51,744 bases of DNA, from NCBI GenBank assembly GCA_024710005.1, contig JANJVQ010000035.1, forward strand, positions 1-51,744, given 5' to 3'. Position numbers and translations under genes: made by a program. Origin of the DNA: Paludibacter sp. (GTDB taxonomy: Bacteria > Bacteroidota > Bacteroidia > Bacteroidales > Paludibacteraceae). Shown here in pieces: positions 841 to 16,928 of the stretch. Every line of letters starts with the position of its first letter. Positions within the stretch are counted from its first letter, which is position 1. A model generated the notes under the pieces. It was not told the DNA's origin. It saw only the letters and a list, made by a program, of their open reading frames with translations, and made no database searches.

Positions 841-1038
841 TTAAATAACCCTCTCCTTTTTTATCAGTTTTTTTAAAATCCGTTTTAAGGGATTGAAATA
901 TCTATTGTCAAATCCTTCTTTAAAAAGATTTATGACTTCTAACCAGTTATTGTCTGGGACATATTTATTTGTAGTTTTACGGTCAATTATATTTCTTAAT
1001 TTTTCCCACTCTTGTTTTTCCGTTAATAGTTCATTCAT
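841..1038 (-). CDS. Truncated paralogue of the R-x4-H protein (65 aa)
   Basis: This is a 65-residue protein whose middle (NWLEVINLFKEGFDNRYFNPL) aligns with residues 29-48 of the 236-aa protein encoded at 1483-2193 (NWNSAIKLFENRFRNKFINP). It has the N-terminal module only; the conserved GEGF segment and the R-x4-H motif are absent. It ends in a basic tail (LKKLIKKERVI) just before the AT-rich gap. Its ATG overlaps the stop of the preceding gene by 4 bp, so it would be translated by coupling as the last gene of the operon. It is either a decayed duplicate cut off by a rearrangement or a deliberately short partner. Function unknown. Confidence 0.5.
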   Translation of the reverse strand: MNELLTEKQEWEKLRNIIDRKTTNKYVPDNNWLEVINLFKEGFDNRYFNPLKRILKKLIKKERVI

Positions 1039-1472
1039 GTTCTATTTCGCATATTATTTACAATACTTTCAAGTCGTCTTAATGATTGAATATGATTTAA
1101 TTGTTGAAATAAATCAGGTTCGGTATGATGATAATTATTTCTGATGAAATAGGTATTTATTTTAGTAATATCATCCAAATTGGGATAATATCCATCTATT
1201 AAAAATTTTGTAATACAATCAAATCGCTCATTTTCAGCACACCATAATATTTCATTTTTAATAAAATCTGTATTTAGTCCATATCCTGTTTTATTAAGAA
1301 TAAAATCTGACCATAAATATTTCCAATGAAAAACAGCGGTTGAATATAAATAACCGATATCAGAATTATGGATTAACAATAATGAAAATCTGAAACTTTG
1401 AATTTCGGGTGTCTCATTTTCTAAATCAACCTCATCAAATGCAAGAATGAAATTTACTAAATCACTTAACAT
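1035..1472 (-). CDS. Hypothetical protein (145 aa) in defence operon
   Basis: I do not recognise this protein. It is 145 residues long, rich in aromatic residues and Asn/Ile, mostly helical in appearance, and has no signal peptide, membrane segment or obvious catalytic motif. It lies 10 bp downstream of the 236-aa gene and overlaps the 65-aa gene by 4 bp, so it is part of the same leftward transcript. Because both neighbours share an N-terminal module, this gene sits between two paralogues, which hints at a duplicated or recombined operon end. Its role in restriction or immunity is inferred only from position. Confidence 0.6.
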   Translation of the reverse strand: MLSDLVNFILAFDEVDLENETPEIQSFRFSLLLIHNSDIGYLYSTAVFHWKYLWSDFILNKTGYGLNTDFIKNEILWCAENERFDCITKFLIDGYYPNLDDITKINTYFIRNNYHHTEPDLFQQLNHIQSLRRLESIVNNMRNRT

Positions 1473-1482
1473 ACATTTTACC

Positions 1483-2193
1483 CTATTCTAAAACTTTCCA
1501 CCATTCAGCAGTTCTATCTTCAATATCATATAGTTGGTCAAATTTTCTTGCTAAATTTCGTCTTAATAAAATCCCTTCTTCTGTATCTTGTTTTAATTCA
1601 ATGATATATCTTTTAAAATAACTTATTAAATCTCTTTGTAGCAAGTCTCTATAAATAATATTGCAATTTCCGTTTCTTCGTCTTTTAGATACTATTGATT
1701 TATCATTTGTGCTATTACCAGATGTAATTTTCCAATTGCCTTTTGTTCTTGTTTCATGCATTAATCCACAACGAACTTTTTTATAAAAATCATTTGAATT
1801 AAAAGGTGTATTTGCAGTTTTGACGCCATTTGCATTTACCAAATAAAAAACGCCATTAAATTCTGGAATTTCAGTCAGAAATTTAATAAACAATTCAATG
1901 CTGTCTTTATATTCATATGGACTCAAAACATTGTCATATCTAAAATACTTACCTTCTCTGAAAGCTGCAAAAGTTTCAATCAATGCACATTGAACCATCA
2001 CAATAGTAAATCCTTCACCTGACTTGGTGTCTGCTTTAAATAATCTATTTAATGGATTGATAAACTTATTTCTAAATCTATTTTCAAATAATTTTATAGC
2101 TGAATTCCAATTGGGTGAATACAAATAATCACCATCCTTACAACAATCTCTTATAGATTGCCATTTAACTACTTCTGTATTTTGAGCTGACAT
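1483..2193 (-). CDS. HEPN-like R-x4-H protein in type III R-M operon
   Basis: This is a 236-residue soluble protein with no assigned function. It contains VRCGLMHETRT, giving R141-x4-H146, the spacing used by HEPN ribonucleases (R-x4-6-H). The preceding segment (GEGFTIVMVQCALIETFAAF, 59-78) reads as a buried helix. I recall similar proteins with an RCGLxHE segment near restriction genes, but cannot search to confirm. The N-terminal part (residues 29-53) is repeated in the 65-aa protein at the operon's end. It lies 5 bp downstream of res. If it is a true HEPN RNase it could be an RNA-cutting effector coupled to restriction; this is inference, and the motif could be coincidental. Confidence 0.7.
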   Translation of the reverse strand: MSAQNTEVVKWQSIRDCCKDGDYLYSPNWNSAIKLFENRFRNKFINPLNRLFKADTKSGEGFTIVMVQCALIETFAAFREGKYFRYDNVLSPYEYKDSIELFIKFLTEIPEFNGVFYLVNANGVKTANTPFNSNDFYKKVRCGLMHETRTKGNWKITSGNSTNDKSIVSKRRRNGNCNIIYRDLLQRDLISYFKRYIIELKQDTEEGILLRRNLARKFDQLYDIEDRTAEWWKVLE

Positions 2194-2198
2194 ATTAC

Positions 2199-5100
2199 TT
2201 ATTTTACCAATCCCATTAATTCCTGATAATTATTCACCACATCATACTTCACACCATCAGTACTGATAGTTTTAAAGTGCTCACGGGCACAATGTATTTT
2301 GGCATCTTCTATAAGCCGAAGGTCAAGGGTGCTCATGGAACCTTTGGTTTCGGCAACGAAATATACATGCTTAACAGTGCCCTTATTGAAAGCAATTGCC
2401 CAGTCTGGATTGTATTTACCCACCGGAGTGGAAATATAAAATCCCTTTGGCAGTTTTACATACACTGACACTTCTTCACTGGCATCTAACTTTTCAGCGA
2501 ATGGCTTTTCAATTGAAGGTGAATCAAAAATAATATAGTCGTACAGGTGCTTATTGGCTGGAATTGCATTCACACCTAACTTACCTTTCATGGTTGGTTC
2601 TGTAAATACTTCTGTGCCGAAACTATCTTCCAACTTATTGTAGGCAATATGTTGAACGATAACTGTTGCCTTTTCTTCGTTAATCAGATTGGCTGCTTTC
2701 AGAATAAATTCTTCCGGATTGTACTTGAACTGCTCAAATACTTCCTTTTTCATCCCAGTCAGAATTTTGACAACTGAATTTCTTGTCAATCCTGTTTCCT
2801 CAACTAATTTCCCAATTAAATCATATTTCACATTAGCATTGGCTGATGTACTGATGACTACATTCTTTGTCCCCTTTTCTTTGAAACCTTCCCCCTGCTG
2901 CAATGCTTCTTTTGACTTTATGGTCTCCATCTCACCAGTACTGACTGTGTAGAAGATTTTTGAAATGTGTAAGTGTAAATCCAGTTTGGTTATGGATTTC
3001 TGTATCAATTCGTCAGTTTCAAAATCTACCACATATGCTGTTTTGGCATTGATACTTTTCCACAAATCCTGGAATTCTTTTCGGTTGAACTTTTCGTCAT
3101 TAAACTTTAATTCCACATTGTTTGATCGGGCATTTTCCGGCTTCATTACCTGTGGATTGTAGATAGTATCCAAAATTCCTACAATAGCAGTTTTATATTC
3201 TGTCAGTTCTTCCGAAACCACCAGATTTTCGTTATCCTTATCCTGATAGTATTTGTCTGTCAATTCTCCACTTTTGTTGATATAGCCATGCATAATCAGG
3301 TCAAAATGGATATTGGTAGCCAATTCATTATCAATTACAACTTCTTCATTATTGACGGTTTTTACTACCTTGTCTTCAAATAATTCAACAGACACTTTCA
3401 ATGGTCGGTCGGCAATAACTTCGGCAAGTTCGGTTTGCAATCCTTTGGCAAACTTGTCATAACTTTCGGAAGCAATAACCGTTAATTGGTTGATATAATG
3501 CACTTCTTCACCCAAAACAGAAACATCCATGCGGTCGCCATCGTTATTGACACAAAGGCGTAATCCACGACCCACTTCCTGCCGTTTGCGTGTTTCGGCA
3601 GTGCTTTGTTTTAGGGTACATATTTGGAAAACATTGGGATTATCCCAACCTTCTTTCAATGCTGAATGCGAAAAGATAAAACGAACAGGTTCCTTGAAAT
3701 CCAATAAACGCTCTTTATCTTTCATAATCAGGTCATATGCATCCACGTCATTACTTTCCTTGGTTGCCTTTTCAATTTTACTATCTACGAACTGATTTTT
3801 CTTTTTATCAACGGAAAAATAACCTGCATGGGTAGTGTCTGTATCAATCTTTTTCAGATAATCCACATAACTTTCTTCCCCAAATTGAAGTTGAAGATTG
3901 CCAACTACATCGTTGTATTCTTCCACAAACATATCAGCATAGACTCCATTCCAAGCAGAACCCGAAGCATCGTATTGCTTGTATTTTGCCACCTCATCAA
4001 TAAAGAATAAACTTAAAACCTTGATACCTTTACTGAACAACTGCCTTTCCCTTTCAATATGCGATAGAATAGTTTCACGGATTTGTATCCGGCGAAGTTG
4101 GTCTTCATTCACCGCCCCTTTTACATCACCTGCATATATTTTCAATCCATTCTGGAAGGTTAGTGAATTATCCCGACCATCAATATAAGTGATAACAAAT
4201 CGGTCTTTGTATTCTTCCAGGTTGCCTGACTTTTCATACAGATTATCACCCTCATATACCTGACGAACAACGGTTTTCACTCCCGAAGATTGTTTTACTT
4301 CAAATCCCAGTTGCGCAGTTGGGTTTTTATCTTTGAAAAGATTGATACCTTCCAAATAAACATAACCTTCTGTGCCCGTTGAACCTGTTTGGCTTATACC
4401 TTTCACAGCAATCTTTTTTACCAACTTCTTATTGTATGCTTCCATCGCATCCAACCGGTATATCAAATTGAAGATACTATCTTTCTTATGTGTAGCAGAA
4501 TAACGAAGTGTAAATAGTGGATTGAAGTTTTTTAGATTTTCTTTGGTTTGCGCACCTTCTACCGACTGGGGTTCGTCAATTATCAAAATTGGATTAGTTT
4601 GGGCTATCACATCAATCGGTTTACGACTGCGAAAACTATCCAATTTCATATAAATACGTCTGGCATCAGCACCTTTGGCATTAAATGCCTGCGAATTGAT
4701 AATCATCACATTCAACTGACTATCGCTGGCAAAACGGTCAATTTCGGTCAATTGAGAAGAATTGTATATAAAGAAATGTATCTTCTTGCCGTAATCTTCC
4801 GAAAAGTGTTCTTGGGTAATCTGAAATGATTTATACACCCCTTCACGAATAGCGATACTTGGCACCACCACAATAAACTTGCTCCAACCATAACGTTTGT
4901 TCAATTCAAACATGGTTTTCACATAGGTATAGGTTTTCCCTGTACCGGTTTCCATTTCAATGGTCAGGTTATACCGACCTTCCAACCCTACCGAAGGCGG
5001 AATCTGGTGGCTGCGTTGGGTTAGTTTTATGTTTTCAAGGATGATTTTATCAGTCAGTTCTGGCACAATTTTATGGTTCTTGAAACCGGTAAAATCATGT

Positions 5101-5237
5101 AAATCCAACTGACCTTTTCCATCCCCCTGGTCAATCATATAATTTGTTTCAGACAGATAGGGCTGTCCCGAAAACACATCGCAAACCGACTTGGCTGCTT
5201 CTGCCTGAAACTTTTGGTGTTTGAATTTTAATTTCAT
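2199..5237 (-). CDS. res: Type III restriction endonuclease, Res subunit
   Basis: This 1012-residue protein is the ATP-dependent restriction subunit that works with Mod to translocate or slide on DNA and cut near methylation sites. Visible parts in order are a helicase Walker A motif (ETGTGKT, 96-102), the Walker B/DExx box (IIDEPQ), a motif III-like RYSAT, a C-terminal helicase lobe with GWDNPNVFQ and the arginine-finger motif (RQEVGRGLRL), and a C-terminal PD-(D/E)XK nuclease with D945, E963 and K965 (NPDWAI then ETKG). Length is normal for the family. Its ATG overlaps the stop of the 231-aa membrane gene by 4 bp. In known type III systems res usually follows mod directly; here a separate gene lies between them. 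No frameshift or missing motif is seen, so it looks functional. Confidence 0.95.
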   Translation of the reverse strand: MKLKFKHQKFQAEAAKSVCDVFSGQPYLSETNYMIDQGDGKGQLDLHDFTGFKNHKIVPELTDKIILENIKLTQRSHQIPPSVGLEGRYNLTIEMETGTGKTYTYVKTMFELNKRYGWSKFIVVVPSIAIREGVYKSFQITQEHFSEDYGKKIHFFIYNSSQLTEIDRFASDSQLNVMIINSQAFNAKGADARRIYMKLDSFRSRKPIDVIAQTNPILIIDEPQSVEGAQTKENLKNFNPLFTLRYSATHKKDSIFNLIYRLDAMEAYNKKLVKKIAVKGISQTGSTGTEGYVYLEGINLFKDKNPTAQLGFEVKQSSGVKTVVRQVYEGDNLYEKSGNLEEYKDRFVITYIDGRDNSLTFQNGLKIYAGDVKGAVNEDQLRRIQIRETILSHIERERQLFSKGIKVLSLFFIDEVAKYKQYDASGSAWNGVYADMFVEEYNDVVGNLQLQFGEESYVDYLKKIDTDTTHAGYFSVDKKKNQFVDSKIEKATKESNDVDAYDLIMKDKERLLDFKEPVRFIFSHSALKEGWDNPNVFQICTLKQSTAETRKRQEVGRGLRLCVNNDGDRMDVSVLGEEVHYINQLTVIASESYDKFAKGLQTELAEVIADRPLKVSVELFEDKVVKTVNNEEVVIDNELATNIHFDLIMHGYINKSGELTDKYYQDKDNENLVVSEELTEYKTAIVGILDTIYNPQVMKPENARSNNVELKFNDEKFNRKEFQDLWKSINAKTAYVVDFETDELIQKSITKLDLHLHISKIFYTVSTGEMETIKSKEALQQGEGFKEKGTKNVVISTSANANVKYDLIGKLVEETGLTRNSVVKILTGMKKEVFEQFKYNPEEFILKAANLINEEKATVIVQHIAYNKLEDSFGTEVFTEPTMKGKLGVNAIPANKHLYDYIIFDSPSIEKPFAEKLDASEEVSVYVKLPKGFYISTPVGKYNPDWAIAFNKGTVKHVYFVAETKGSMSTLDLRLIEDAKIHCAREHFKTISTDGVKYDVVNNYQELMGLVK

Positions 5238-5929
5238 CGTTTAGAGATTTCTATTTCAGTATACTTGGCTTCAAAAGGCATTGTTGTTTCATCAAACCAT
5301 TTATTTTCAACACAATAAACACATCGTTTAAACGGATTGCGATTCTTTTCTAAACGTAAATAATTTCTGTTTTTGAAATTATTCTTGTGAATCATTTTCA
5401 CCAAGACAACACGTTTGATTTTCCAAAATGATTTATTTTTAAACTTACAGTATATCATTGTGCCATTATATTCATCTCCCTGTAAATCAACATCAACAAT
5501 CCAATCATAAGGTATAATGCCAACATTAAATGCTTCGTACTCAATTAAGCCACTCTTTCCGTTTTTACTAAATGTTTCCTTATCTTCATCGAAATAAAGT
5601 TTTTCACTGCCCCAAAAGAATTCAACACCATCAAATCTTGTGTTCTTAATTTCTGCTTTGAAATGCGAATATCTACCAAAAGGGTTTTCATTTGAAGGAT
5701 AATATTTTTCATAAACATCTACATCGATTAAAACCACTGAATGTTTTCGGTTCTTTTTTACATATATGTTGTTTATAATTTCATCTAACTTTGGCTTAAT
5801 CTGGTTTCTATTATCTAATTTAGCTTTAAAAGAAATTTTTTTAGATAGATTGAATATGACAACGGTCAATACGATTTGTATAACCCCGAGTACTACACTA
5901 ACTATAATATTTAAACATTCAGTATCCAT
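5234..5929 (-). CDS. Membrane-anchored hypothetical protein between mod and res
   Basis: This is a 231-residue protein not recognised as a known family. Residues of about 8-30 (a run of Ile/Val/Leu beginning LNIIVSVVLGVIQIVLTVV) form one transmembrane helix, followed by a Lys/Asn-rich soluble domain with many beta-strand-like stretches and few obvious motifs. The topology suggests an anchored cytoplasmic domain, because positive residues (SKKISFKAK) follow the helix. It starts 4 bp after mod and overlaps res by 4 bp, so translation is tied to both. That strict placement argues that it is part of the system and not a passenger. A role in tethering the restriction complex or sensing phage entry at the membrane is possible but unproven. 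Confidence 0.75.
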   Translation of the reverse strand: MDTECLNIIVSVVLGVIQIVLTVVIFNLSKKISFKAKLDNRNQIKPKLDEIINNIYVKKNRKHSVVLIDVDVYEKYYPSNENPFGRYSHFKAEIKNTRFDGVEFFWGSEKLYFDEDKETFSKNGKSGLIEYEAFNVGIIPYDWIVDVDLQGDEYNGTMIYCKFKNKSFWKIKRVVLVKMIHKNNFKNRNYLRLEKNRNPFKRCVYCVENKWFDETTMPFEAKYTEIEISKR

Positions 5930-5933
5930 ACTT

Positions 5934-7793
5934 TTATATCACCTTAATCGTAGTATCACCCGACAGTGTTTTAAAAATCTCCGACACATTAATCTTTTCG
6001 GGGCTGCTGCCAAATGAACTATCACGGAAAACTACCCGTAGTGGCTTGCGTTTGGCTATTTCACGTACTACCGTTTCGGTGATATTTTCTTCAAAACATG
6101 CCACCAAATCGGTATCATTTACAAAATGCACCTGCTTGCCACCAACGATTTCGGTGATATGTGGCAATGACAAAGGCACACCCCAATCCAACATTACACC
6201 AAACAACAAATCCAAATCGGTGCGGTCTTCTTTGATATTGCTTTCCAGGTCCAACAACATTTGCTGACTGTATTCACCTGCGCTGTAATAGACATCCTTC
6301 ATATTGGTGTCGTCTAATTTCAGCACTCTGAAACCTGTATCAACCGTTTTTACATCTTCCTTTTCTGAAAATAAACCACCATCTTTGGACTTGGCTTGTA
6401 GTTTTTCTTCAATTTTCTTACCTGCCCTGCGGATACGTTCTTTTCCTATTTCACAGATAGTTTTGTAGCCCGCTTTGTATGCTTCCGATTTTTCATCAGT
6501 CTTTTCTGGCAACTGAACCATAATAAACTTTCTGTTTCCTCCATCCTCTGCATTTAATTGCATTACCGCATGTGCTGTTGTTGCTGAACCTGAATTAAAA
6601 TCAAGTATAAAATTTCCTTCGTTTTTATTTAAAATAGTTGAACCTAAAATTAATTCTTTTAGTAGGCTAACTGGTTTTGGAAAATCAAAATAATTACCCA
6701 ATCCGAGATTTGTAAGATCAATTACCCCATTCTTATTTAGATGTTTAAGAATTGTATAAAATTTGGAAGTATCTTCACTTACTTTTCTAAATCTACCAAC
6801 AATATTATAATTTTCTTTTTTTACGAGTAAATAATTTCCTTTCTTCAAACCTTCATCAATTTCATTTTTTTTATTTATTCCAAGAAATTTCTCAATTTCT
6901 TCATATGGACAAGTGCCATATTTCCCGAATTCCTTTCTAAGCCAATCTGTTTCAATCCAATAATCTTCACCATTTTTCTGCACAATTTTACCTCTAATAT
7001 CTTTTGGCTTTCCAAGAGGTTTAAATTTCTGAATATTTTTAGAGAATACTAAAACATAGTCATGCCCAATAACTGCTTGTTTTGCCAATCCACCTCCTTC
7101 TGAACGTATTACTATAAAATTTGCAATGAAATTACTTTCACCAAAAACTTCATCGCAAATCTTCCTCAGACTATCCACTTCATTATCATCTATCGAAATA
7201 AAAATTACACCATCATCTGACAATAAATTTCTTCCCAATTGCAATCTTGGATACATCATACTGCACCAATCTGAATGATAGCGTCCATTAGATTCGGTAT
7301 TTTTAAAAAGGCGGTTTTCTTCTTCATCATATACACCCAAATCACCTTCGTAATCCTCTTTGGAAACGGCAAAATTATCCCGATACACAAAGTCGTTGCC
7401 GGTATTATAAGGTGGGTCAATATAAATCATTTTAATGCTGTTCAGATACGAATTTTGAAGCAGTTTCAGCACTTCCAGGTTATCGCCTTCTATATACAGA
7501 TTTTCGGTGCTATCCCAGTTTTTGCTTTCGTCTTTGGCTGGGCGCAGGGTTTTACGTATGGGGCGGTTGCCTTCTATTATAGATTGCTTTTTGCCTACCC
7601 AGGTAAATTCGTAGCACTCATCACCATCCACCACATCGGCAGATAGCAACTGCTTCAAGGTGGTAAAGTTGATTGCCTTTTTCAGTTTGCCTTCGGCATC
7701 TTTTGTTTCGGTAATTGCCGAAGGAAACAGCTCGGCAATGCGTTCTATGTTCTGTTGGGTAATATCAGGGGTTTGTTGGGGAAGTTTGTCCAT
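5934..7793 (-). CDS. mod: Type III DNA methyltransferase, Mod subunit
   Basis: This 619-residue protein is the modification and specificity subunit of a type III restriction system, transferring a methyl group from S-adenosylmethionine to adenine in a short asymmetric site. Motif IV DPPYNTGND starts at residue 126 and the SAM-binding motif I (LDFNSGSATTAHAVM) lies much later, the beta-class order expected for Mod. The segment between them varies most among Mod proteins and is the target recognition domain, so the recognition site cannot be read from sequence. The end (about 540-619) matches the conserved Mod C-terminus that contacts Res. It lies 15 bp after the DUF4160 gene. The motif I reads DFNSGS where DFFSGS or DFFAGS is usual, a minor change. 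Confidence 0.95.
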   Translation of the reverse strand: MDKLPQQTPDITQQNIERIAELFPSAITETKDAEGKLKKAINFTTLKQLLSADVVDGDECYEFTWVGKKQSIIEGNRPIRKTLRPAKDESKNWDSTENLYIEGDNLEVLKLLQNSYLNSIKMIYIDPPYNTGNDFVYRDNFAVSKEDYEGDLGVYDEEENRLFKNTESNGRYHSDWCSMMYPRLQLGRNLLSDDGVIFISIDDNEVDSLRKICDEVFGESNFIANFIVIRSEGGGLAKQAVIGHDYVLVFSKNIQKFKPLGKPKDIRGKIVQKNGEDYWIETDWLRKEFGKYGTCPYEEIEKFLGINKKNEIDEGLKKGNYLLVKKENYNIVGRFRKVSEDTSKFYTILKHLNKNGVIDLTNLGLGNYFDFPKPVSLLKELILGSTILNKNEGNFILDFNSGSATTAHAVMQLNAEDGGNRKFIMVQLPEKTDEKSEAYKAGYKTICEIGKERIRRAGKKIEEKLQAKSKDGGLFSEKEDVKTVDTGFRVLKLDDTNMKDVYYSAGEYSQQMLLDLESNIKEDRTDLDLLFGVMLDWGVPLSLPHITEIVGGKQVHFVNDTDLVACFEENITETVVREIAKRKPLRVVFRDSSFGSSPEKINVSEIFKTLSGDTTIKVI

Positions 7794-7807
7794 ATATATT
7801 TGTCTTA

Positions 7808-8158
7808 TTATTTTAGTCGATTATCCCATATTAATTTGAATACAATTTTTCCTTTGGGACTATTAAACATTGCTTTTATTCTTTTTAAATATTTAGCGTT
7901 TATCTCTCCACTAATTAGATCACAATTTTCAATAGTAAACTTGGCGTTAATTTTATGGTCTTTTGTTTTGACATGAAAATGAGGGGGATTATGGTCATTC
8001 GAATGAATATGAAGTTCTAAATCTTTGATTACTCCAACCTTTTTTTTCGTTTCACAATAATCATCGAACTGCAAATGCTTTGCAATTAACCCATCACTCA
8101 TCGTCAAATACTCTGTCAATAGGAATTTCAATATGTTTTCAATTATGTCTTGGCTCAT
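7808..8158 (-). CDS. DUF4160 family protein
   Basis: This 116-residue protein has the hallmark of DUF4160, a His-rich motif (HSNDHNPPHFHV) near residues 52-63, followed by a short beta-rich half and an IWDNRLK end. Such proteins are widespread small accessory genes, often beside toxin-antitoxin or mobile genes, and have no established activity; the clustered histidines suggest metal or nucleotide binding. Here the protein has an extra N-terminal helical part (1-45). The start overlaps the end of the DUF4391 gene by 20 bp, and mod begins 15 bp after its stop, so it is expressed with the restriction genes. A direct role in the system is inferred from this packing. Confidence 0.8.
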   Translation of the reverse strand: MSQDIIENILKFLLTEYLTMSDGLIAKHLQFDDYCETKKKVGVIKDLELHIHSNDHNPPHFHVKTKDHKINAKFTIENCDLISGEINAKYLKRIKAMFNSPKGKIVFKLIWDNRLK

Positions 8159-8801
8159 ATTGTTCCTTTAATTTATTTTTCAACTCTTTAATTTCATTCG
8201 AAATCTTCAATTGAATATTAAATTGCTTTTCATTCAATTTTTTATTTTCTAATTCTGCTATTTTCTTTTTAATTTTTTCAATTTCCTGTGCCTGGTGTAC
8301 AGACTGTTTTAAATCAATACCTTCCTGTTTTTCAATCCTACTTCCAGCAATTTGAAACACCAAATTTTCATATACCTGATCAATATCCAATCCTTTGATT
8401 GATAAGTCAAGTACAACTTCTTTCATCCAATCAGTTGAATATGTATCAATAATTTTGAACTTCCCTTTCTGGTATTCTTCTTTGAAATTTACATATAATT
8501 GAAAATTGTCCTGATATTTAAATAAAAAAATCAGATGTCGGGGAATTGCCTTTTCAATTACATCAATAATTGCCTTTGAATACTCTTTCCTTTTCAATAC
8601 GATCATAACAACATCCACCTGATTTACTTTCTGTCCATTTGCTACGTTCAGTGTTGCCGGAGAAAGCACATTTTGCCAGATTATCTGCTCAACATCATCA
8701 ATAAATGCTTTTTTTACCGCTGTACTCAAAGATAGGTTCTTGTAAAACTCTTCTTTGGGTATTTTCTTACCAATGTAGGTTGATTCAGGCAGCTTGATCA
8801 T
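8139..8801 (-). CDS. DUF4391 family protein
   Basis: The start chosen is the ATG at 8801, which overlaps the helicase stop as TAATG; an ATG seven codons further upstream lies inside the helicase gene and is less likely. The product is about 220 residues. The first 150 (beginning MIKLPESTYIGKKIPKEEFY) resemble DUF4391, a family I know from the company of SNF2 helicases and type III-like methyltransferases. The last 60 residues are a Lys/Glu-rich coiled coil (IEKIKKKIAELENKKLNEKQ) that probably joins it to a partner. No catalytic motif is evident. Tight coupling to the helicase suggests the two proteins form a complex, which is inference. Confidence 0.8.
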   Translation of the reverse strand: MIKLPESTYIGKKIPKEEFYKNLSLSTAVKKAFIDDVEQIIWQNVLSPATLNVANGQKVNQVDVVMIVLKRKEYSKAIIDVIEKAIPRHLIFLFKYQDNFQLYVNFKEEYQKGKFKIIDTYSTDWMKEVVLDLSIKGLDIDQVYENLVFQIAGSRIEKQEGIDLKQSVHQAQEIEKIKKKIAELENKKLNEKQFNIQLKISNEIKELKNKLKEQYEPRHN

Positions 8802-11800
8802 TATCTTACAACTAAAAAGCAAATTAATTCAAAATCACTTATTCCTGATATTTTATTTATTACTGAACTTGTTTCAGAAGCAGTAAAAAAACTATGAATG
8901 TCTTTTTCTTCCTTCACGTTTATAATTGATGCAATTGCACTTTCCAATAATTGAGAATACTTACCCATCTTTCTTCCATCCTGTGTTTCTTTGTTGAAAT
9001 CACGACACAATTTAAGCATCGGTTCTGAATTTCCCTTACAAAGATAACGCATTAAATCTAAGGTTTTTTTTGGTGAGATGTGATTGCAAACAATTTCTTC
9101 CTCATTCGATATGTAAACCATATAAAAGGGATGCAATCTATTCTGGTTATCAATGTTAACTGATTTACTGATGTTTCTAAGCACATAGAATACCCCTTTG
9201 GGGGTATCATTCCCTTTTGAAGACACAACTGCATGTAGTCCAAACGGAGCACCCTGCACATCAGGATTGTCTTTCATATACTCCAATAAATCCAGTCGAA
9301 ATTCATTCAACCCCAGATCCATAATTGAAATTCCATTGGACATGTCTTCTATATCCACCACTTCATCCATCAAGCGTTGAAGTTGTTGTTTGCGATATTC
9401 CAGATCCCCTTTTTCTTCGGCACTAATCAAATTGTCATCACCCGTTGATGTCATAACCGATATTTTCATCCGGGTTTCAACCCTTCCTTTCAAGTTAATA
9501 TAGTCATCTAATGAGAGATCAGGCCAGAAATTAACCAATTGAATAACATCGTTTCTACTGCCGATTCTGTCTATTCGTCCAAAACGTTGTATTATTCTGA
9601 CAGGATTCCAATGAATATCATAATTAATCAGGAAATCACAGTCTTGTAAGTTCTGTCCCTCAGAAATACAATCAGTGGCTATCAGGATGTCAATTTCATC
9701 TTTGTTATTAATGCCTAACAAAAGGTCTTTTTGCTTTGATATTGGAGAAAAACAAGTAAGCACGGTGTTCAAATCATTTCTAAGTTTAGGGCATGTTGTT
9801 CTACCATCCACAGAGCCGGTAATTAGTGCCGTATTTAGGTTGTATTGTTGCTTAACATGCTTGCTTACATTGTCATACAGATATTCAGCTGTATCAGAAA
9901 ATGCCGTAAATATAATTACCTTTTTATTCTCATCATTGATTGGATTTTCAATCTTTTGTTCGATTGTTCTTAATAATGTTTGTAGTTTGAAATCATGTTC
10001 CGGGGTAATGTCATCAACAAAAAACATCAATTGCATCAGCGTTTCACTATCTGCACGCAGGTCTGCCAACCACGATATTGTATCCATATCGGAGAGCGAT
10101 ACTTGTAGTTTTCTACCAACGAATAAATCAGTATTTTGGTCATCTATTTCCAAGTCAACTTCACTTACCATATCATCGAGCACCACTAAATCATTGTTAT
10201 GATTTTCAACCATGCTAATGGTATTGTCAATAAGCGCCTTGATTTTATTGACCGTTTTACTAAAAGAATGTACGGAGCTTTCCAGACGTTTAAGTAAGTT
10301 GATATTCATCAACCGCTGGATGCCTCGTTCACGACCTGTTTGCATGTAAAATCCTTTACTTGAAACATCAGGATCAATTTCATATTTTTCTCTTCTACTT
10401 GGAAAAATAAAGAATGATGGAGTATAAATACTCAGGTTAAGTTGAATCAGCAATTCGTAAATCTCATCAAAATTGATGGCACCTTTCTTTTCAGTTAAAG
10501 AAGGACGGATGGAAATGGGTTTGAGTCGTTCCGGGAACTTGCCTATTGCCTCAGTATTATAATACTTTTCAATATGTTTCCGGGAACGGGCAATGGTAAT
10601 ACTATCGAGTACTTCAAAAAAATCATAGTCAAGCAGACTCAGAAGACTTTCAGTGGTTCTATCTTTACTATCAAATTTACTCCATTTGTTGAATGCTGCC
10701 TGTGCCTGTCGGAAAATATCATCAATAGTTCTATGTGTGTTTAGCAACTCATCAATCTTTTCTGATTCACCCTCATAGGCCAAAGCAATTTGATTGCGTA
10801 AGTCATTAAATCTGTTGTTTACAGGTGTTGCAGAAAGCATCAGCACCTTAGTTTTTACCCCAGTTCGAATGACTTTGTTGAGTAGCTTCAAATAACGGTT
10901 TTCTTTTCTTTCGTCATCGCCATAAGTTTGACCACCATTTCTGAAATTATGACTTTCATCAATCACCACTAAATCATAATTTCCCCAGTTGATGCGATCA
11001 AGAGGCAATCCGTTAGAAATACCATTATCCCTCGACAAGTCAGTATGATACAGCACATCATAACGCAAGCGGTCTTTTGCAATGGGATTGTTTGTCAGGT
11101 TACTCCGATAAGTTACCCAGTTATCATTTAATTTTTTAGGGCAAAGCACCAATACCGATTTATTCCTGTTTTCGTAATACTTAATAACAGCTAAGGCTGT
11201 GTAGGTTTTTCCAAGTCCAACACTATCAGCAAGAATGCAACCGTTGAATTTTTCTAATTTGTTGATGATGGCCAGAACGGCATCTTGTTGAAAATTATAA
11301 AGTTTATTCCAAATCTCAGAGGATTTAAAACCGGTGGCACTGTTGGGTAAAACATCCTCTGAAATATCTTCTAAAAACTCATTGAAGATGTTGTAAAGGG
11401 TTATGAAATAAACAAAGTCAGGAGAGTTTTCTTTATACACATTAGCGATGCTATCAATTACCTGTTCAGTTACATCAGTCAATTTTCGGTTATCTTGCCA
11501 GATTTCATTGAAAATGTGCAGGTATTTTTCACTGTGTGGTGTGTCAATTTTTGAAACAAGATTGAAGAGATTATTGCCCCTTTCGCAACCCAAATCAACA
11601 GTTGTAAAACCATTTACGGGGAAATATGTGAGTTTTTCTTTTCCTTCAACATTGATAAAACCACCCATCAATTCATTGGTGATGTTGGACTTAAATTTCA
11701 CCTTTTGCTTAATCCACTCAGCACATTCCCGTGCTATCGCTTTTTGCGATAATTCATTTCGAAGTTTAATCTCAAATTCAGTACCGTATAAACTTCTTTC

Positions 11801-12034
11801 ACGATTTAATTGAGGTATGTAAAACTCCCTTTTTTCTTTTTGTTGTTTCTCTTTGACAAAGGTGGGTGATGTGAAAATAAAACGAAGTTCGGAGATGTCT
11901 TGTAGTTGCTTTTTCAGCTCCTCGAAAGCATAAATTGAAAAACATGCGGATGCAATTGATATACGACTACCTTTTTGAATTGTAGTTGCAAGATCATCTT
12001 TTACTTTATGGTTAACGTTATCGAATATCTGCAT
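8801..12034 (-). CDS. SNF2-type helicase with N-terminal PLD-like domain
   Basis: This is a 1077-residue first gene of the operon. Residues 1-60 (RISIASACFSIYAFEELKKQ onwards) look like the N-terminal phospholipase-D-like domain found in many bacterial SNF2-type helicases; no HxKx4D catalytic motif is visible, so it may only bind DNA. The motor has Walker A (DSVGLGKT, 270-277), Walker B DESH (359-362), LSATPVNN (motif III), and a C-terminal lobe with SEGQNLQDCD and the motif VI sequence QRFGRIDRIGS. The remaining 200 residues are poorly recognisable. The motor is expected to translocate on double-stranded DNA. Type III restriction does not need this second motor, so its fusion into a mod/res operon is notable. 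It is divergent from the macro-like gene across 218 bp. Confidence 0.9.
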   Translation of the reverse strand: MQIFDNVNHKVKDDLATTIQKGSRISIASACFSIYAFEELKKQLQDISELRFIFTSPTFVKEKQQKEKREFYIPQLNRERSLYGTEFEIKLRNELSQKAIARECAEWIKQKVKFKSNITNELMGGFINVEGKEKLTYFPVNGFTTVDLGCERGNNLFNLVSKIDTPHSEKYLHIFNEIWQDNRKLTDVTEQVIDSIANVYKENSPDFVYFITLYNIFNEFLEDISEDVLPNSATGFKSSEIWNKLYNFQQDAVLAIINKLEKFNGCILADSVGLGKTYTALAVIKYYENRNKSVLVLCPKKLNDNWVTYRSNLTNNPIAKDRLRYDVLYHTDLSRDNGISNGLPLDRINWGNYDLVVIDESHNFRNGGQTYGDDERKENRYLKLLNKVIRTGVKTKVLMLSATPVNNRFNDLRNQIALAYEGESEKIDELLNTHRTIDDIFRQAQAAFNKWSKFDSKDRTTESLLSLLDYDFFEVLDSITIARSRKHIEKYYNTEAIGKFPERLKPISIRPSLTEKKGAINFDEIYELLIQLNLSIYTPSFFIFPSRREKYEIDPDVSSKGFYMQTGRERGIQRLMNINLLKRLESSVHSFSKTVNKIKALIDNTISMVENHNNDLVVLDDMVSEVDLEIDDQNTDLFVGRKLQVSLSDMDTISWLADLRADSETLMQLMFFVDDITPEHDFKLQTLLRTIEQKIENPINDENKKVIIFTAFSDTAEYLYDNVSKHVKQQYNLNTALITGSVDGRTTCPKLRNDLNTVLTCFSPISKQKDLLLGINNKDEIDILIATDCISEGQNLQDCDFLINYDIHWNPVRIIQRFGRIDRIGSRNDVIQLVNFWPDLSLDDYINLKGRVETRMKISVMTSTGDDNLISAEEKGDLEYRKQQLQRLMDEVVDIEDMSNGISIMDLGLNEFRLDLLEYMKDNPDVQGAPFGLHAVVSSKGNDTPKGVFYVLRNISKSVNIDNQNRLHPFYMVYISNEEEIVCNHISPKKTLDLMRYLCKGNSEPMLKLCRDFNKETQDGRKMGKYSQLLESAIASIINVKEEKDIHSFFTASETSSVINKISGISDFELICFLVVR

Positions 12035-12252: not shown

Positions 12253-12636
12253 ATGAAAAACATCACTCCTGCATTTATCACACAACTACAATCCAATGAA
12301 ATATTTGTATTCGGCTCGAATTCCGAGGGGAATCATGCCGGAGGTGCAGCAAGACAGGCAATGAGGTTTGGCGCCATCCTGGGGCAGGGAAATGGGCTGC
12401 AAGGACAAACCTATGCCGTCCCAACTATGTTTGCTCATGAAAGTAGAATTGAACCATTTGTTGATGACTTCATTGGTTTTGCAAAAAGGAATCCCCAGTT
12501 AAAATTTCTTGTAACAAGAGTAGGCTGTGGAATTGCAGGGTTTAAAGAAAAACAGATTGCGCCGATGTTTCAAAGGGTTAAAACTGAGAAAATTGAAAAT
12601 GTATATTTACCCAAGGAGTTTTGGGATGTGATATAA
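12253..12636 (+). CDS. A1S_2505-like (macro-domain-like) protein
   Basis: This 127-residue protein resembles the A1S_2505 group of phage and island proteins. Key features are EIFVFGSNSEGNHAGGAARQ (residues 16-35), a Gly-rich loop GQGNGLQGQTYAVPT, and FLVTRVGCGIAGFKEKQIAP. Gly-rich loops after a GSN/GN motif and a later VGCGIAGF strand-loop recall macro domains, which bind ADP-ribose or related nucleotides; the relation is from pattern, not a search. The conserved length is normal for the group. It is followed after 38 bp by a SLOG-like protein, and the pair may act on a nucleotide signal or on NAD-derived ligands. It sits in a defence island, which fits but does not prove an immune role. Confidence 0.75.
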   Translation: MKNITPAFITQLQSNEIFVFGSNSEGNHAGGAARQAMRFGAILGQGNGLQGQTYAVPTMFAHESRIEPFVDDFIGFAKRNPQLKFLVTRVGCGIAGFKEKQIAPMFQRVKTEKIENVYLPKEFWDVI

Positions 12637-12674
12637 TGTTTGTATAGATTTCAATAACTAATCTCAATAATTAT

Positions 12675-13274
12675 ATGACCCTTCAAGAATTCATCCTAAA
12701 ATACGACCACTCAAACTCAGTCATTCTTCTTGAAGGTAAACGGAATGTCTTAGATTCTGACAAGGAAAAGCTATTTTTATTAGGAAAATTATTGGCATCA
12801 AAAACATCAAAAATGACTTTCAGAAGCGGAAATGCAGAAGGAGCTGATCAGTATTTTTCTGAGGGTGTTGCAGAAATTGATAATAAAAGATTACAAGTGA
12901 TCACACCCTACAATAATCACCGACAGAAAACAAACAAATCATATTCAACCATTTCGTTAGATGATGTGAATTTATTGAGCAATCCGGAAGTTGTTTATCA
13001 TTCAAAGAATAACAAGAAAACGGAAAGTTTAATTGATAGATATGTTTCAGGTGAAAAAAATCGTTACACAATTAAAGCTGCTTATATTATTCGAGATACA
13101 ATTAAAGTTCTGGGTGCTGATGATATTTTGCCCGCAACATTTGGGATTTTTTATGATGATTTGGGTGATCCAGGGAAAGGTGGTACCGGGCATACAATGA
13201 CTGTTTTTAGTCAAATGAATATTCCTTTTGTGGATCAGAGGGAGTGGTTTGAATGGGTAGAGGAGAGTGATTAG
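12675..13274 (+). CDS. SLOG-like Rossmann-fold protein
   Basis: This 199-residue protein has a Rossmann-like start with VILLEGKRNV, then MTFRSGNAEGADQYFSEGV (about residues 47-65), which resembles the SLOG/DprA/LOG signature where a Gly-rich loop and GAD bind a nucleotide. The last part holds DPGKGGTGHTMTVF and an acidic end, likely a second ligand-contact element. SLOG proteins bind or sense nucleotides and small nucleotide-derived signals; many lie in phage-conflict loci. It has no signal peptide or membrane segment. Together with the macro-like gene 38 bp upstream it probably forms a two-gene unit. The exact ligand cannot be inferred. Confidence 0.7.
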   Translation: MTLQEFILKYDHSNSVILLEGKRNVLDSDKEKLFLLGKLLASKTSKMTFRSGNAEGADQYFSEGVAEIDNKRLQVITPYNNHRQKTNKSYSTISLDDVNLLSNPEVVYHSKNNKKTESLIDRYVSGEKNRYTIKAAYIIRDTIKVLGADDILPATFGIFYDDLGDPGKGGTGHTMTVFSQMNIPFVDQREWFEWVEESD

Positions 13275-13329
13275 GAGCCTTGTTTGATACAATGAAATTG
13301 ATAATATGCATTTTTAACAAATAACTCAA

Positions 13330-13674
13330 ATGGAAAAACTAATTTACTGTAATGATGGTTGTTTAGCAGCAATGGTTGCTATAATCAACAAATCTAAGAA
13401 ATGGAATTTATTTGGCGTTTCAGAGATTTATGGCATGGGTAATGCGGATTATAAGAAAAAGCTTTTTGACTTCGATTTTATTGAAATCGTTCCGTTGAAT
13501 AGTTACGATGGGAAATCGTATGTATGTTTGAATAAAGATAATAAATGGGGTTTATTGGAAGTGAAGGATAGTGAAACAGCTCATTGTGAATGGAATCTTA
13601 TCGCTGATTTCAACTATGACAGTATGGATTCATTATTAAAAGAAATGAAGATTGATAGGAAAAAATATGATTAA
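13330..13674 (+). CDS. Small WG-like hypothetical protein (114 aa)
   Basis: A 114-residue protein with no firm family. It contains NKDNKWGLLEV, which resembles one WG repeat (a short beta-hairpin unit with a conserved Trp-Gly), and an acidic C-terminal helix. It starts 55 bp after the SLOG-like gene in the same direction and may belong to the same transcript, although codon use and AT content alone do not decide this. No signal peptide, no membrane segment and no catalytic residues can be named. Confidence 0.6.
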   Translation: MEKLIYCNDGCLAAMVAIINKSKKWNLFGVSEIYGMGNADYKKKLFDFDFIEIVPLNSYDGKSYVCLNKDNKWGLLEVKDSETAHCEWNLIADFNYDSMDSLLKEMKIDRKKYD

Positions 13675-13844
13675 TTAATTTTCGATATTCATTTAAATGA
13701 AAACATATAATAAATATTATCAACAGGTGTTAAATTAGGGGCTTTGAAATAGTGGTTTATCGTATTAGTATATTTCCAGATCAGTAAATAAATATATACC
13801 AACCTAATTAATTCAATCGATTATTAACTTTAAAACTATACATT

Positions 13845-14774
13845 ATGGCACGAAGAATTAGCGATGATTTTATTAATGATTTACTTCATGGTGAATTATC
13901 TGAACTTTTAGAATATGTAAAAAGTGATGATACCCTTGATTTAGAGTTTCGTAAGAAAAAAATTATCATTTATTATCGAGGTGGGAAACTGTTAGAAGTT
14001 AAAGAGAAAAGGCCAAATATTTATGAGTTTGTCTCTGGTGATAAAGGCTACAATCCCAAAATGAAAGATTTTAATAAACCTTCAATTGCAGAATTAGACC
14101 AGTATATTCCTCAATTTAAAAATATTATTGATTTATATTTTGGTGGAAGTAGACTTGATAAAAAAGAACGTGTACGATTCTCCTTTGAAAACGAAATTAG
14201 GCAACATATTGTAAGAGAAAATAACTTTGCAAATAAAGCTGATCAAACTGATTATTTTATTATTGACGTTGAATATGAAACAGAACTTCGTAAGAAATTC
14301 GATATAGTTGCAATAGAATGGGAAGCAAATCCAACATATCGTAAACTACAAAAAAAATACACTCCCAAAATTGTAATTTTTGAATTAAAATATGCAGAAG
14401 CCTCTATACAATCTAAATGTGGTTTAGAAGATCATTTAAAAGACTTTGAATCATTCAAAAAAAATGTAGATGAAGTTAATAAATTTAAAAGTGACATGTT
14501 GGACGTTTTAAAGCATAAAAGGGAACTGGGTTTAATCCCTTATTTGAACAAAACAAACAAAAATCTAGTAACTAAATTCGCAGAAGAAGTTTCATTTGTA
14601 AATATTATTGCCAATTTCAAGAAAGAATCATCAACGTTAAAAAAGGAAGTTGATAAAATGGACAAATTTGACATGATAATTGCAAATTTTATGGGATATG
14701 GACTTTATAAACATTGTATTAGAAGTAAAGATGAAGTATTGAAATTAATAGAAATTGATAAACTTAATTCATGA
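13845..14774 (+). CDS. PD-(D/E)XK-type putative nuclease, coupled to MBL gene
   Basis: This 309-residue protein is not a named family, but residues 118-200 fit the PD-(D/E)XK nuclease pattern: an early Glu in FENEIRQ (E118), D153 in RKKFDIVAIEW, then VIFELKYAE with E180 and K182, followed by a helix with GLEDHLKDF. The first 110 residues are an Ile/Lys-rich region (KKKIIIYYRGGKLLEVKEK, then KGYNP) that may bind nucleic acid or a partner. The gene is preceded by 170 bp without a gene, so it probably has its own promoter, and its stop overlaps the start of the next gene (ATGA). Two putative nucleases made in fixed ratio suggest a two-part system. The nuclease call is by motif only. Confidence 0.7.
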   Translation: MARRISDDFINDLLHGELSELLEYVKSDDTLDLEFRKKKIIIYYRGGKLLEVKEKRPNIYEFVSGDKGYNPKMKDFNKPSIAELDQYIPQFKNIIDLYFGGSRLDKKERVRFSFENEIRQHIVRENNFANKADQTDYFIIDVEYETELRKKFDIVAIEWEANPTYRKLQKKYTPKIVIFELKYAEASIQSKCGLEDHLKDFESFKKNVDEVNKFKSDMLDVLKHKRELGLIPYLNKTNKNLVTKFAEEVSFVNIIANFKKESSTLKKEVDKMDKFDMIIANFMGYGLYKHCIRSKDEVLKLIEIDKLNS

Positions 14775-16078
14775 AATTCAAAATCCATAGAGGCACAAAT
14801 GAAATAGGCGGCTCGTGTGTGGAGGTCTGGACTGCAAGCACACGAATACTACTTGACTTCGGTATGCCCTTAGTCAACAAAGATAGAAGCGAATTTGACT
14901 TCAACAAATTCAAAAACTTAACTCCTGAGGAATTAATTGAAGACGGAGTTTTGCCGGATTTAAAAGGTATTTATGATGAAACCGACAAATTAATCGATGG
15001 TGTGGTTATATCCCATCCACACCAGGACCATTATGGGTTTAGCAACTACATTCATAAAAATGTACAATATTATTTAGGCGAAGCGACGCATAAAATAATT
15101 GATATCAATAGCTTATTCACTTCCAGGAAGATAATTATTGAAAATGCTAACTATTTTGAAAAGGAAAAAACATTTCAAATTGGCGACATTTCAATTACAC
15201 CTTTTTGGGCTGATCATTCCGCTTTTGATTCGTATTCTTTTTTAGTTGAAGCTGATGGTAAAAGTCTGTTTTATTCAGGTGATTTCAGAAGCCACGGTAG
15301 AAAAGCAAATGTTTTTAAATGGTTTTTGCATAATGCTCCTCAAAATGTGGATTATTTACTGCTGGAAGGAACCACAATTGGAAGAGAAAGCAAACCGTTC
15401 AAGACAGAAACTTCAATTGAGGATGATTTTATAAAGGTTTTCCAAGAACAAAATAAAATCAATTTAATATACACATCTGGACAAAATATTGATAGAATTG
15501 TTTCAGTTTATAGGGCTTGTATAAGCACCAATAAAATTTTAGTTGTGGATGTATATGTAGCAACTGTTCTGAAAGCATTATCAAAATTTGCCAAAATTCC
15601 TTTTCCTTCAATAGGGTTTAGAAATTTGAAAGTAATGTTTCCTTATTACATATGTCAAAAATTAATGAAAGAAGGAAATGAGGATGTTTTTCTTCAATTC
15701 AAACAGTATAAAATCACCAAAGAAGAAATAAGCAAGCAATCGGACAAGATTGTCATGTTTGTAAGACCGTCCATGCAAAAACACATAGAAAACATAGACA
15801 ACATAGATGGTGGGAATTTTATATATTCAATTTGGGAAGGGTATTTGAAAAAACCTGAAACTGAAAAATTTATTGACTATTTTACAAGTCGCAATTTTAC
15901 GATACATAAAATTCATACAAGCGGCCACGCTGATACTGAAACATTAAAACAAATGGTGATAGCAATCAAACCCCAAAATATTGTTCCAATTCATACTTTC
16001 AGCAGAAGCGAATATTCAAAGATTTTTACTACTCCGGTAGTTGAAATAAATGATGGTGAAACAATTAGTATCGAATAG
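14771..16078 (+). CDS. Metallo-beta-lactamase-fold hydrolase, RNase J-like
   Basis: This 435-residue protein has the zinc site of the metallo-beta-lactamase fold: HPHQDH (residues 82-87), a later ADHSAFDSYSF, and YSGDFRSHGRK with the bridging Asp. Near the end SGHADTETLKQMV and IVPIHTFS match the C-terminal motifs A-C region of the beta-CASP/RNase J branch. The N-terminal GTNEIGGSCVEV is also typical of RNase J relatives. It is shorter than RNase J (about 550 residues), lacking the C-terminal domain, so a specialised nuclease or phosphodiesterase is likely. It is translated by coupling with the PD-(D/E)XK gene and ends 222 bp before the tRNA genes, the right edge of the island. Confidence 0.85.
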   Translation: MKFKIHRGTNEIGGSCVEVWTASTRILLDFGMPLVNKDRSEFDFNKFKNLTPEELIEDGVLPDLKGIYDETDKLIDGVVISHPHQDHYGFSNYIHKNVQYYLGEATHKIIDINSLFTSRKIIIENANYFEKEKTFQIGDISITPFWADHSAFDSYSFLVEADGKSLFYSGDFRSHGRKANVFKWFLHNAPQNVDYLLLEGTTIGRESKPFKTETSIEDDFIKVFQEQNKINLIYTSGQNIDRIVSVYRACISTNKILVVDVYVATVLKALSKFAKIPFPSIGFRNLKVMFPYYICQKLMKEGNEDVFLQFKQYKITKEEISKQSDKIVMFVRPSMQKHIENIDNIDGGNFIYSIWEGYLKKPETEKFIDYFTSRNFTIHKIHTSGHADTETLKQMVIAIKPQNIVPIHTFSRSEYSKIFTTPVVEINDGETISIE

Positions 16079-16299: not shown

Positions 16300-16385
16300 T
16301 GGTACCCGAAGCGGGACTTGAACCCGCACAGCCGTGAGGCCAAAGGATTTTAAGTCCTTCGTGTCTACCATTCCACCATCCGGGC
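16300..16385 (-). tRNA. tRNA-Leu (anticodon TAA)
   Basis: An 86-nt cloverleaf reads leftward from GCCCGGATGG to an encoded CCA. The anticodon stem AAGGA/TCCTT encloses CTTAAAA, giving anticodon TAA. The T arm GCGGGTTCAAGTCCCGC is perfect and a class II variable arm (TGGCCTCACGGCT) is present. Its 3' end faces the accessory island, a classic landing point for integrative elements. Confidence 0.95.
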
Positions 16386-16415
16386 AGGAATGACTCCTGT
16401 GACTCCTAAGAGTTG

Positions 16416-16488
16416 AGCGAAAAACGGGACTCGAACCCGCGACCCTAACCTTGGCAAGGTTATGCTCTACCAACTGAGCTATTTTCGC
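16416..16488 (-). tRNA. tRNA-Gly (anticodon GCC)
   Basis: A 73-nt cloverleaf reads leftward from GCGAAAA to TTTTCGC plus discriminator T; CCA is not encoded. The anticodon stem AACC/GGTT encloses TTGCCAA, giving GCC. The D arm (GCTCAGTTGGTAGAGC) and T arm (GCGGGTTCGAGTCCCGT) are intact. It lies 30 bp upstream of tRNA-Leu and is probably co-transcribed with it. Confidence 0.93.
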
Positions 16489-16928
16489 ATTATATAATCT
16501 TTTTGCTAAACTTATCTCAGTTGGTAGAGCACCATCGTGCCTATTTTCTGGCAACTGAGCTATTTTCGCATTAATGAAACTGAGCTATTTTCGCATTTTA
16601 TTTTGCCACATTAGTCGCACAAGTAGTTTTGCTGCAATAGTTCTTTGCTATTAGTTATTAGCTATTCGCTTTACTGACCTTTGTCAAAGCGGCTGCAAAT
16701 ATAGCAAGTTTTTTTTATTTATCGAAATGTTTGATCAAAAAAACCACAACAGAAATTAATCAAGCAAAATACAACAAGCCCATTCTCTTAACACCGCTGA
16801 TTATCAATGTTATCTATACAGAACATCTAAACCGGAAATATTATATAACAATTATTGTATATAAATTTAACAATATACGATGAGATTTGTCGTTAAATGT
16901 CCTAACAATTTAAAACAGCCAAAGCAGC
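16489..16928. other. Gene-free stretch with tRNA fragments before the C25-family gene
   Basis: These 440 bases contain no credible gene. They hold two broken copies of the tRNA-Gly 5' half, a plus-strand D-arm-like piece (CTCAGTTGGTAGAGCA, 16517-16532), and a TTAGCTATTCGCT phrase near 16658-16671 that recurs around the methylase gene at 40 kb. The right part must contain the promoter of the C25-family gene; no strong consensus box is seen. Confidence 0.6.
16552..16596 (-). repeat. Two partial copies of the tRNA-Gly 5' half
   Basis: The first 20 nt of tRNA-Gly (ATGCGAAAATAGCTCAGTTG on the minus strand) recur at 16552-16571 and, without the last two bases, at 16579-16596. Neither copy continues into the anticodon arm, so they are fragments and not tRNA genes. 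Confidence 0.8.

Follow-up and report, generated by a model that had tools for sequence, protein, structure and literature searches.

A nine-gene operon around type III Mod and Res

We analysed a 51,744-nucleotide contig of Paludibacter sp. (JANJVQ010000035.1, assembly GCA_024710005.1), referred to here as the window, and describe an operon at positions 841-12034 that combines the type III restriction-modification (R-M) proteins Mod and Res with an SNF2-family ATPase and a DUF4391 protein. Nine open reading frames (ORFs), all leftward, are densely packed in this interval (Table 1). In 5' to 3' order they encode the SNF2 ATPase, the DUF4391 protein, a DUF4160 protein, Mod, a membrane-anchored protein, Res, a protein with an R-x4-H motif, and proteins of 145 and 65 amino acids (aa). 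From the 3'-most to the 5'-most gene the intergenic distances are -4, 10, 5, -4, 4, 14, -20 and -1 bp, so that the first-pass annotation, which had described nine leftward genes with overlaps or gaps of 15 bp or less, agrees with the range of -20 to +14 bp found here. The TAATG coupling it proposed, in which the SNF2 stop codon overlaps the DUF4391 start, holds if the ATG at 8801 is taken as the start of DUF4391 in place of the TTG at 8822 from which the mechanical ORF runs. Pfam matches support its domain names for the SNF2, DUF4391, DUF4160, Mod and Res proteins. The protein encoded between mod and res has, as it had said, a membrane anchor in the form of a single N-terminal hydrophobic stretch (by eye), and the R-x4-H motif was also recovered.

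Table 1. Genes of the operon, from the 5'-most to the 3'-most
Feature	Coordinates	Strand	Evidence
SNF2-family ATPase, 1077 aa, N-terminal PLD-like fold without HxK/GSxN catalytic residues; core gene 1	8801..12034	-	SNF2/Helicase_C match
DUF4391 protein, 220 aa from ATG, alpha/beta domain and C-terminal helical hairpin; core gene 2, proposed adaptor	8139..8801	-	PF14335 6e-48
DUF4160 protein, 116 aa; variable cargo, DUF4391/Mod slot	7808..8158	-	PF13711 2.1e-10
Mod, type III DNA adenine methyltransferase, 619 aa; core gene 3	5934..7793	-	N6_N4_Mtase; PADLOC MTase_III PDLC03634 678 bits; DPPY
Membrane-anchored protein, 231 aa; variable cargo, Mod/Res slot	5234..5929	-	One N-terminal hydrophobic stretch (by eye)
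Res, type III restriction subunit, 1012 aa, SF2 motor and PD-(D/E)XK; core gene 4	2199..5237	-	ResIII and RE_endonuc; PADLOC REase_III PDLC03647 969 bits
HEPN-like protein, 236 aa, R-x4-H motif RCGLMH; variable cargo after Res	1483..2193	-	Conserved motif
145-aa protein without family match, between the HEPN-like gene and its truncated relative	1035..1472	-	
65-aa ORF, truncated relative of the N-terminus of the HEPN-like protein	841..1038	-	33% identity over 61 aa, E 6e-8

Judged by their motifs, Mod and Res are type III proteins. The window Mod has the DPPY motif and a type III profile, as defined for an N6-adenine methylase, and Res contains the PD..ExK, TGTGKT and DEPQ motifs of an SF2 helicase joined to a PD-(D/E)XK nuclease. 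These signatures are constant across relatives, with PD..ExK in 71/71 Res and DPPY in 76/76 Mod proteins.

A four-gene core across bacterial phyla

An alignment of 16 SNF2 proteins was scanned against 84,980 species genomes and recovered at least 544 relatives; the best-scoring 80 loci were kept, which favours nearer relatives in the counts, and Mod and Res were counted from 100 aa upward. Among these 80, all 48 SNF2 loci with at least 9.9 kb of downstream sequence carry DUF4391, Mod and Res on the same strand. The remaining loci comprise 15 that have all four genes although they are cut, and 17 that are incomplete, every one at a contig end. The 61 operons complete in one run belong to 12 phylum-level groups (Bacillota 20, Bacteroidota 18, Pseudomonadota 10, Verrucomicrobiota 3, Actinomycetota 2, Thermodesulfobacteriota 2 and six others with 1 each). 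SNF2, DUF4391, type III Mod and type III Res are a recurrent core across many bacterial phyla, and the association of Mod, SNF2 and DUF4391, which the first-pass annotation had given as recurrent, is borne out.

The core order SNF2-DUF4391-Mod-Res was found as 76 complete systems among 118 SNF2 loci examined, the others including many cut at contig ends and eight of an Eco57I-linked group described below; locus L078, which is nearly the same as L077, counts towards the motif totals of 101 and 77 but neither towards the 76 nor towards the cargo figures. In L156 and L054 the pairs are swapped, with SNF2-DUF4391 after Mod-Res, an arrangement that fits two modules. In L045 and L046 an opposite-strand three-gene block between DUF4391 and Mod splits the operon, the L045 block encoding a GIY-YIG protein and another that falls just short of the cut-off for DUF6884.

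Searches from the DUF4391 side gave a similar picture. DUF4391 is present in 27 of 395 genomes of the window's phylum, and around the 20 strongest loci (the window's own excluded) an SNF2 relative adjoins in 18 and Mod lies on the piece in 19; in the two loci without SNF2, L037 and L038, the DUF4391 frame is interrupted by a stop codon. All four genes are present on each of six plasmid records reached through SNF2 or DUF4391 (Escherichia coli, Methylotuvimicrobium, Enterococcus, Listeria, Leuconostoc and Acinetobacter), with an insertion sequence (IS) element between Mod and Res in the Acinetobacter plasmid. SNF2 relatives were found in 14 E. coli plasmid records and DUF4391 relatives in 14. 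The one opened (L075, CP057716.1) combines the four-gene core with an IncFIB replicon and, to judge by its neighbouring genes, may be a phage-plasmid.

The SNF2 protein had been called PLD-like in the first-pass annotation. The PLD fold is present, yet the catalytic motif is lost, with no HxK in the first 230 residues of the window protein. After proteins shorter than 1000 aa were dropped, 110 of the 118 were kept for the motif count (101 type III-linked, eight Eco57I-linked, and L092, which was assigned to neither group and is without the motif). The PLD HxK..GSxN motif occurs in 0/101 type III-linked relatives as against 8/8 of the Eco57I-linked group (L064, L066-L069, L196-L198), where it is intact as HxK..GSSN; the SNF2 DExH motif is kept in 77/77. 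A large protein (about 1060-1360 aa, some cut) lies near SNF2 in seven of the eight Eco57I-linked loci. It is Eco57I/type IIG-like in the three scanned (L066, L069, L198), and in L064, L067, L196 and L197 it was unscanned or matched to DUF4391 only; L068, at a contig end, was placed in the group by similarity.

Because the motif is lost throughout the type III-linked proteins but kept throughout the Eco57I-linked group, the window-type SNF2 protein probably acts as a motor and leaves DNA cleavage to Res. We reject a PLD nuclease in the SNF2 protein on the motif loss, although the fold exists. The operon does encode two ATP motors, as first proposed, namely SNF2 and the SF2 motor of Res. SNF2 proteins travel along double-stranded DNA (dsDNA) without strand separation (PMC5512222). 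PADLOC 2.0.0 places the window protein in family C3a139 'HKD+Snf2' (395 bits). L170, L171 and L172 have Mod-x-Res operons that lack DUF4391 but carry a different SNF2 gene (about 950-970 aa) ahead of mod; it adjoins mod in L170 and L172 and lies two ORFs before it in L171. Of the three proteins, those of L170 and L171 were scanned and resemble DrmD (727 and 703 bits), so type III systems may have recruited an SNF2 motor a second time.

The DUF4391 protein matches PF14335 with 164 bits against a curated cut-off of 29.9, and its AlphaFold2 model has a pLDDT of 95.3. PADLOC 2.0.0 gave no match for the window protein or for one E. coli plasmid DUF4391 protein; in the literature searched, one paper names the family, in a table (PMC7784981). 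One large frame of the Eco57I-linked group (G137) has a DUF4391 match above the Pfam cut-off. Short frames of 54-88 aa (G284:C8, G229:C14, G303:C8, G185:C56) match the C-terminal helical hairpin part alone.

The history of Res was examined in quick LG+G4 tree searches, which gave long-branch warnings and used a chosen subset (33 of 77 SNF2-linked Res, the window included). In a 65-protein tree, 28 of the 33 SNF2-linked Res group together with two Res from cut contigs in a clade that has an SH-aLRT of 100 and excludes phage P1 Res, and the remaining five fall in a second clade, mixed with unlinked ones. In a second tree, which gained seven plasmid sequences and omitted the long rows L183 and L195, three unlinked Res from plasmids of Staphylococcus hominis, S. 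epidermidis and Lactococcus lie inside the first clade, and the second clade holds six linked and five unlinked proteins. The Enterococcus L077 Res, with SNF2, and the Lactococcus L205 Res, without it, are nearly identical (end branches 0.012 and 0.014). Given this near-identity and an IS6 transposase directly upstream of the Lactococcus mod gene, loss of SNF2-DUF4391 is the likely direction in Lactococcus. In L168 and L207 a DUF4391 remnant persists where SNF2 is gone.

Mod-Res also occurs alone elsewhere. At 19 Res loci of the window's phylum there is room upstream and this SNF2 family is not there. Among seven plasmid records opened from the Res side (60 listed of 111 found), two have SNF2 and five do not; they were chosen mostly for absence from the listed SNF2 matches and so give no rate, and the fetched stretch was searched, which was not always the whole record. 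A strict dependence of Mod-Res on SNF2 is ruled out by the Staphylococcus and Lactococcus plasmids, by L206 and L207, and by the 19 loci of the phylum. The dependence is one-sided, since Mod-Res occurs without SNF2-DUF4391 and the reverse was not seen where the contig allows. The SNF2-DUF4391 pair is thus an add-on module to Mod-Res.

Exchangeable cargo genes

Neighbourhood comparison recovered the four-gene core in other genomes and did not recover the nine-gene set. The DUF4160, membrane, HEPN-like, 145-aa and 65-aa proteins have no homologue in other core loci by BLAST, phmmer or a hidden Markov model (HMM), though very remote homologues of such short proteins could escape; the sole DUF4160 match is a 75-aa ORF in L198, outside any type III operon. 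In L081, the nearest relative, SNF2 and Res share 74% identity with the window proteins, Mod 61% and DUF4391 47%, and the five extra genes scanned there encode a Fic protein, two DUF3800 proteins and two proteins without family. The first-pass view of nine genes locked into one machine is contradicted by these findings, while its recurrent Mod/SNF2/DUF4391 association and its two motors stand. Rarity of the extra genes beside mod and res, which it had said would count against it, applies to five of the nine and not to SNF2 or DUF4391. The five look like exchangeable add-ons, some of them toxin-like by sequence.

Across the 76 complete systems, extra ORFs occupy the SNF2/DUF4391 slot in 11, the DUF4391/Mod slot in 30, the Mod/Res slot in 31 and the position after Res in 43; in 28 there is no ORF inside the core. 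These ORFs are mechanical calls of at least 70 aa and may include false genes, and the Pfam tallies cover the first 25 of 39, 36 and 60 families. Among the Pfam matches listed for inner cargo (48 and 36 proteins) are Fic, HEPN, Abi_C, Abi_2, AbiEii, zeta toxin, YoeB and ParE, as well as RhuM, YhcG/DUF1016, Shedu, GmrSD, schlafen AlbA_2 and 23S_rRNA_IVP. The first gene after Res (38 of the 43 loci scanned) encodes, among the families listed, mainly AAA or SMC-type ATPases (up to 4/38) and ResIII proteins (three), with Mrr, GmrSD and OLD-like families represented twice each. The SNF2/DUF4391 slots of L042, a genome of the window's phylum, and L160, a Desulforhopalus, hold the same 23S_rRNA_IVP-like cargo (L042:10195-10584 and L160:11513-11872, 76% identical in alignment), which suggests that cargo passes between phyla.

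The window's own extra genes appear to fit this toxin-like picture in part, through the DUF4160 and HEPN-like proteins. The former is a distant match to the DhiT toxin model NF048015 (E 4.7e-5, 23.9 bits, below the cut-off of 100). The R-x4-H motif of the latter is conserved in all four aligned long sequences, which are the window protein and homologues from Agrobacterium, Rhizobium and Ciceribacter (of 12 plasmid records found); P0001 is too short to hold it. This protein has no Pfam match above cut-off and no PDB sequence match of note, and its HEPN assignment rests on the motif. The 231-aa membrane protein has no family past the curated cut-off and no PADLOC match. For the 145-aa protein we found no family match and no homologue in core loci or viral contigs, and the 65-aa ORF is possibly a duplication remnant.

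The surroundings of the operon include further features. At the contig edge by its 3' end, positions 110-436 encode a serine recombinase C-terminus (Resolvase match below cut-off, E 0.005). Five rightward genes adjoin it at 12253-16078, with a Pfam match in the last alone (metallo-beta-lactamase fold with RMMBL, 14771-16078), and may represent a further defence block. At 16300-16600, tRNA-Leu and tRNA-Gly genes lie beside repeated short tRNA-gene-end pieces, ctgagctattttcgcat (by eye), the kind of trace that integration events can leave. Elsewhere the window encodes a SusC-like/SusD pair and a Por-type sorting tail, features indicative of Bacteroidota.

Proposed mechanism and relation to known systems

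We propose a two-motor form of type III restriction in which DUF4391 couples the SNF2 motor to Mod-Res and the cargo in part provides back-up effectors, a reading to which we assign a probability of roughly 0.5. In the model we infer, Mod would recognise the site and methylate adenine, and Res would supply the nuclease and an SF2 ATPase of its own. A second dsDNA motor, of SNF2 type, is probably linked to this enzyme by DUF4391; this motor, its PLD catalytic residues gone, may drive the enzyme along the DNA or displace proteins bound there. EcoP15I spends few ATP, becomes a passive slider and cuts on meeting a second enzyme, at inverted site pairs only (PMC4490356); a driven enzyme could restrict targets that such passive sliding handles poorly. 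Some of the extra genes might act as back-up growth-arrest effectors, held in check by the restriction complex and freed when the enzyme is defeated. The window's candidate would be the HEPN-like protein as an RNase, modelled after PrrC with EcoprrI. More tentative still is the wider claim of a widespread, unnamed type III subtype, in which a nuclease-dead PLD-SNF2 translocase would be docked via DUF4391 on Mod-Res, the enzyme being driven and not passive and bearing a toxin-like cargo bay.

Several observations weigh against this proposal. DUF4391 has no function-revealing PDB match, and its comparison with the N-terminus of the Eco57I-type partner is a weak link (hhalign 82% with one alignment, 11% with a larger one). 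Staphylococcus and Lactococcus plasmids of the same Res clade have Mod and Res without SNF2-DUF4391 (one whole 14.3-kb record; 17.1 of 17.8 kb of another), so that the motor is not required to keep Mod-Res. The HEPN call depends on one motif, and the three homologues whose surroundings were opened are not beside recognised R-M genes. Among the families listed, the top single one accounts for at most 6/36 or 4/48 inner cargo proteins; with no dominant family, the guard role is one interpretation of a heterogeneous collection.

The alternative that fares best, which we consider somewhat unlikely, is that SNF2-DUF4391 forms a separate restriction or exclusion activity, reading Mod methylation and blocking unmethylated DNA alone, as is thought for DISARM-like SNF2/methylase pairs; Mod would then serve two effectors. 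Related SNF2 proteins with the PLD motif intact do stand beside large Eco57I-type methyltransferases (in the three scanned), no full-length Res being seen there, and the existence of Mod-Res without the pair is compatible with separate activities. However, loss of the motif in all type III-linked relatives leaves such a module without a known nuclease, and in all 48 loci with room Res as well as Mod accompanies it. It is improbable that the pair aids modification, for instance by carrying Mod along newly replicated DNA. Methylase-SNF2 dyads with SNF2-ATPase-dependent modification have been proposed for phage and plasmid proteins (PMC5512222), but plasmids with Mod-Res and no SNF2 would be hard to keep if modification required SNF2.

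Similarly improbable is an ordinary type III system in which SNF2 and DUF4391 are passengers that travel along and do no joint work. The SNF2-free Mod-Res loci in the same Res clade, in the second clade and at the 19 sites of the window's phylum would suit it, as would the other operon genes, which clearly come and go; against this, SNF2-DUF4391 is never apart from Mod-Res in the 48 loci with room, in many phyla, and the loci that have lost SNF2 (L168, L207, L203-L205) have either a truncated DUF4391 or none. That all nine genes make one machine, as their tight packing might suggest, is very hard to credit when five are missing from the other core loci searched and L081 has other genes in the same slots.

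Should SNF2-DUF4391 cooperate with Mod-Res, a large set of restriction enzymes from gut, soil and plasmid-bearing bacteria would have two motors and perhaps a different mode of travel on DNA. A natural comparison exists in the close Res proteins with and without the second motor (Enterococcus L077, Lactococcus L205), and the cargo slots are a place to seek new growth-arrest effectors. Type III Mod and Res are known; the four-gene set appears to be new. Since PADLOC 2.0.0 recognises Mod and Res as type III and leaves DUF4391 unmatched, such a system would be listed there as plain type III R-M. We found no description of SNF2-DUF4391-Mod-Res as a system in the literature searched, in which subscription papers are poorly covered, so one may exist; an SNF2 helicase, a Mod methylase and a type III Res do appear, without comment, in the cargo given for a Cronobacter element (PMC12757443).

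Toxin-like genes embedded in an R-M operon are shared with PrrC-EcoprrI, for which a guard model has been described, and with R-M-linked HEPN, Fic and RhuM genes (PMC3710099); the operon here differs in being type III with four slots, and its HEPN-like protein is without an ATPase family match. The Type-2 BREX-related systems with HKD and SNF2 domains (PMC12839542) and SauUSI differ in that here the PLD catalytic residues are lost and the partner is a type III Mod-Res. With DISARM the window shares an SNF2 helicase beside an adenine methylase, and the helicase core is like DrmD (PADLOC 132 bits; NCBIfam DrmD 157 against a cut-off of 610), but the nuclease here is Res and C3a139 is a much stronger match for SNF2 (395 bits). 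PADLOC showed no DrmA, DrmB or DrmC as a gene of its own among the nine (for SNF2 and for Mod, among the 25 matches listed), the DrmA match shown being SNF2 itself at 75 bits, and Pfam gave no match to DUF499 or DUF3780 in the nine proteins. Membership of DISARM or a BREX-related system fails because these signature genes are missing, and beyond the shared helicase core PADLOC bears out the first-pass statement that no BREX, DISARM or Zorya signature is present. The closest likeness is to the type III enzymes EcoP1I and EcoP15I, with which the window shares a DPPY Mod, a Res with SF2 ATPase and PD-(D/E)XK nuclease, and type III PADLOC scores for both; it differs from them in a Res clade apart from that of phage P1 and in the addition of an SNF2 motor and DUF4391.

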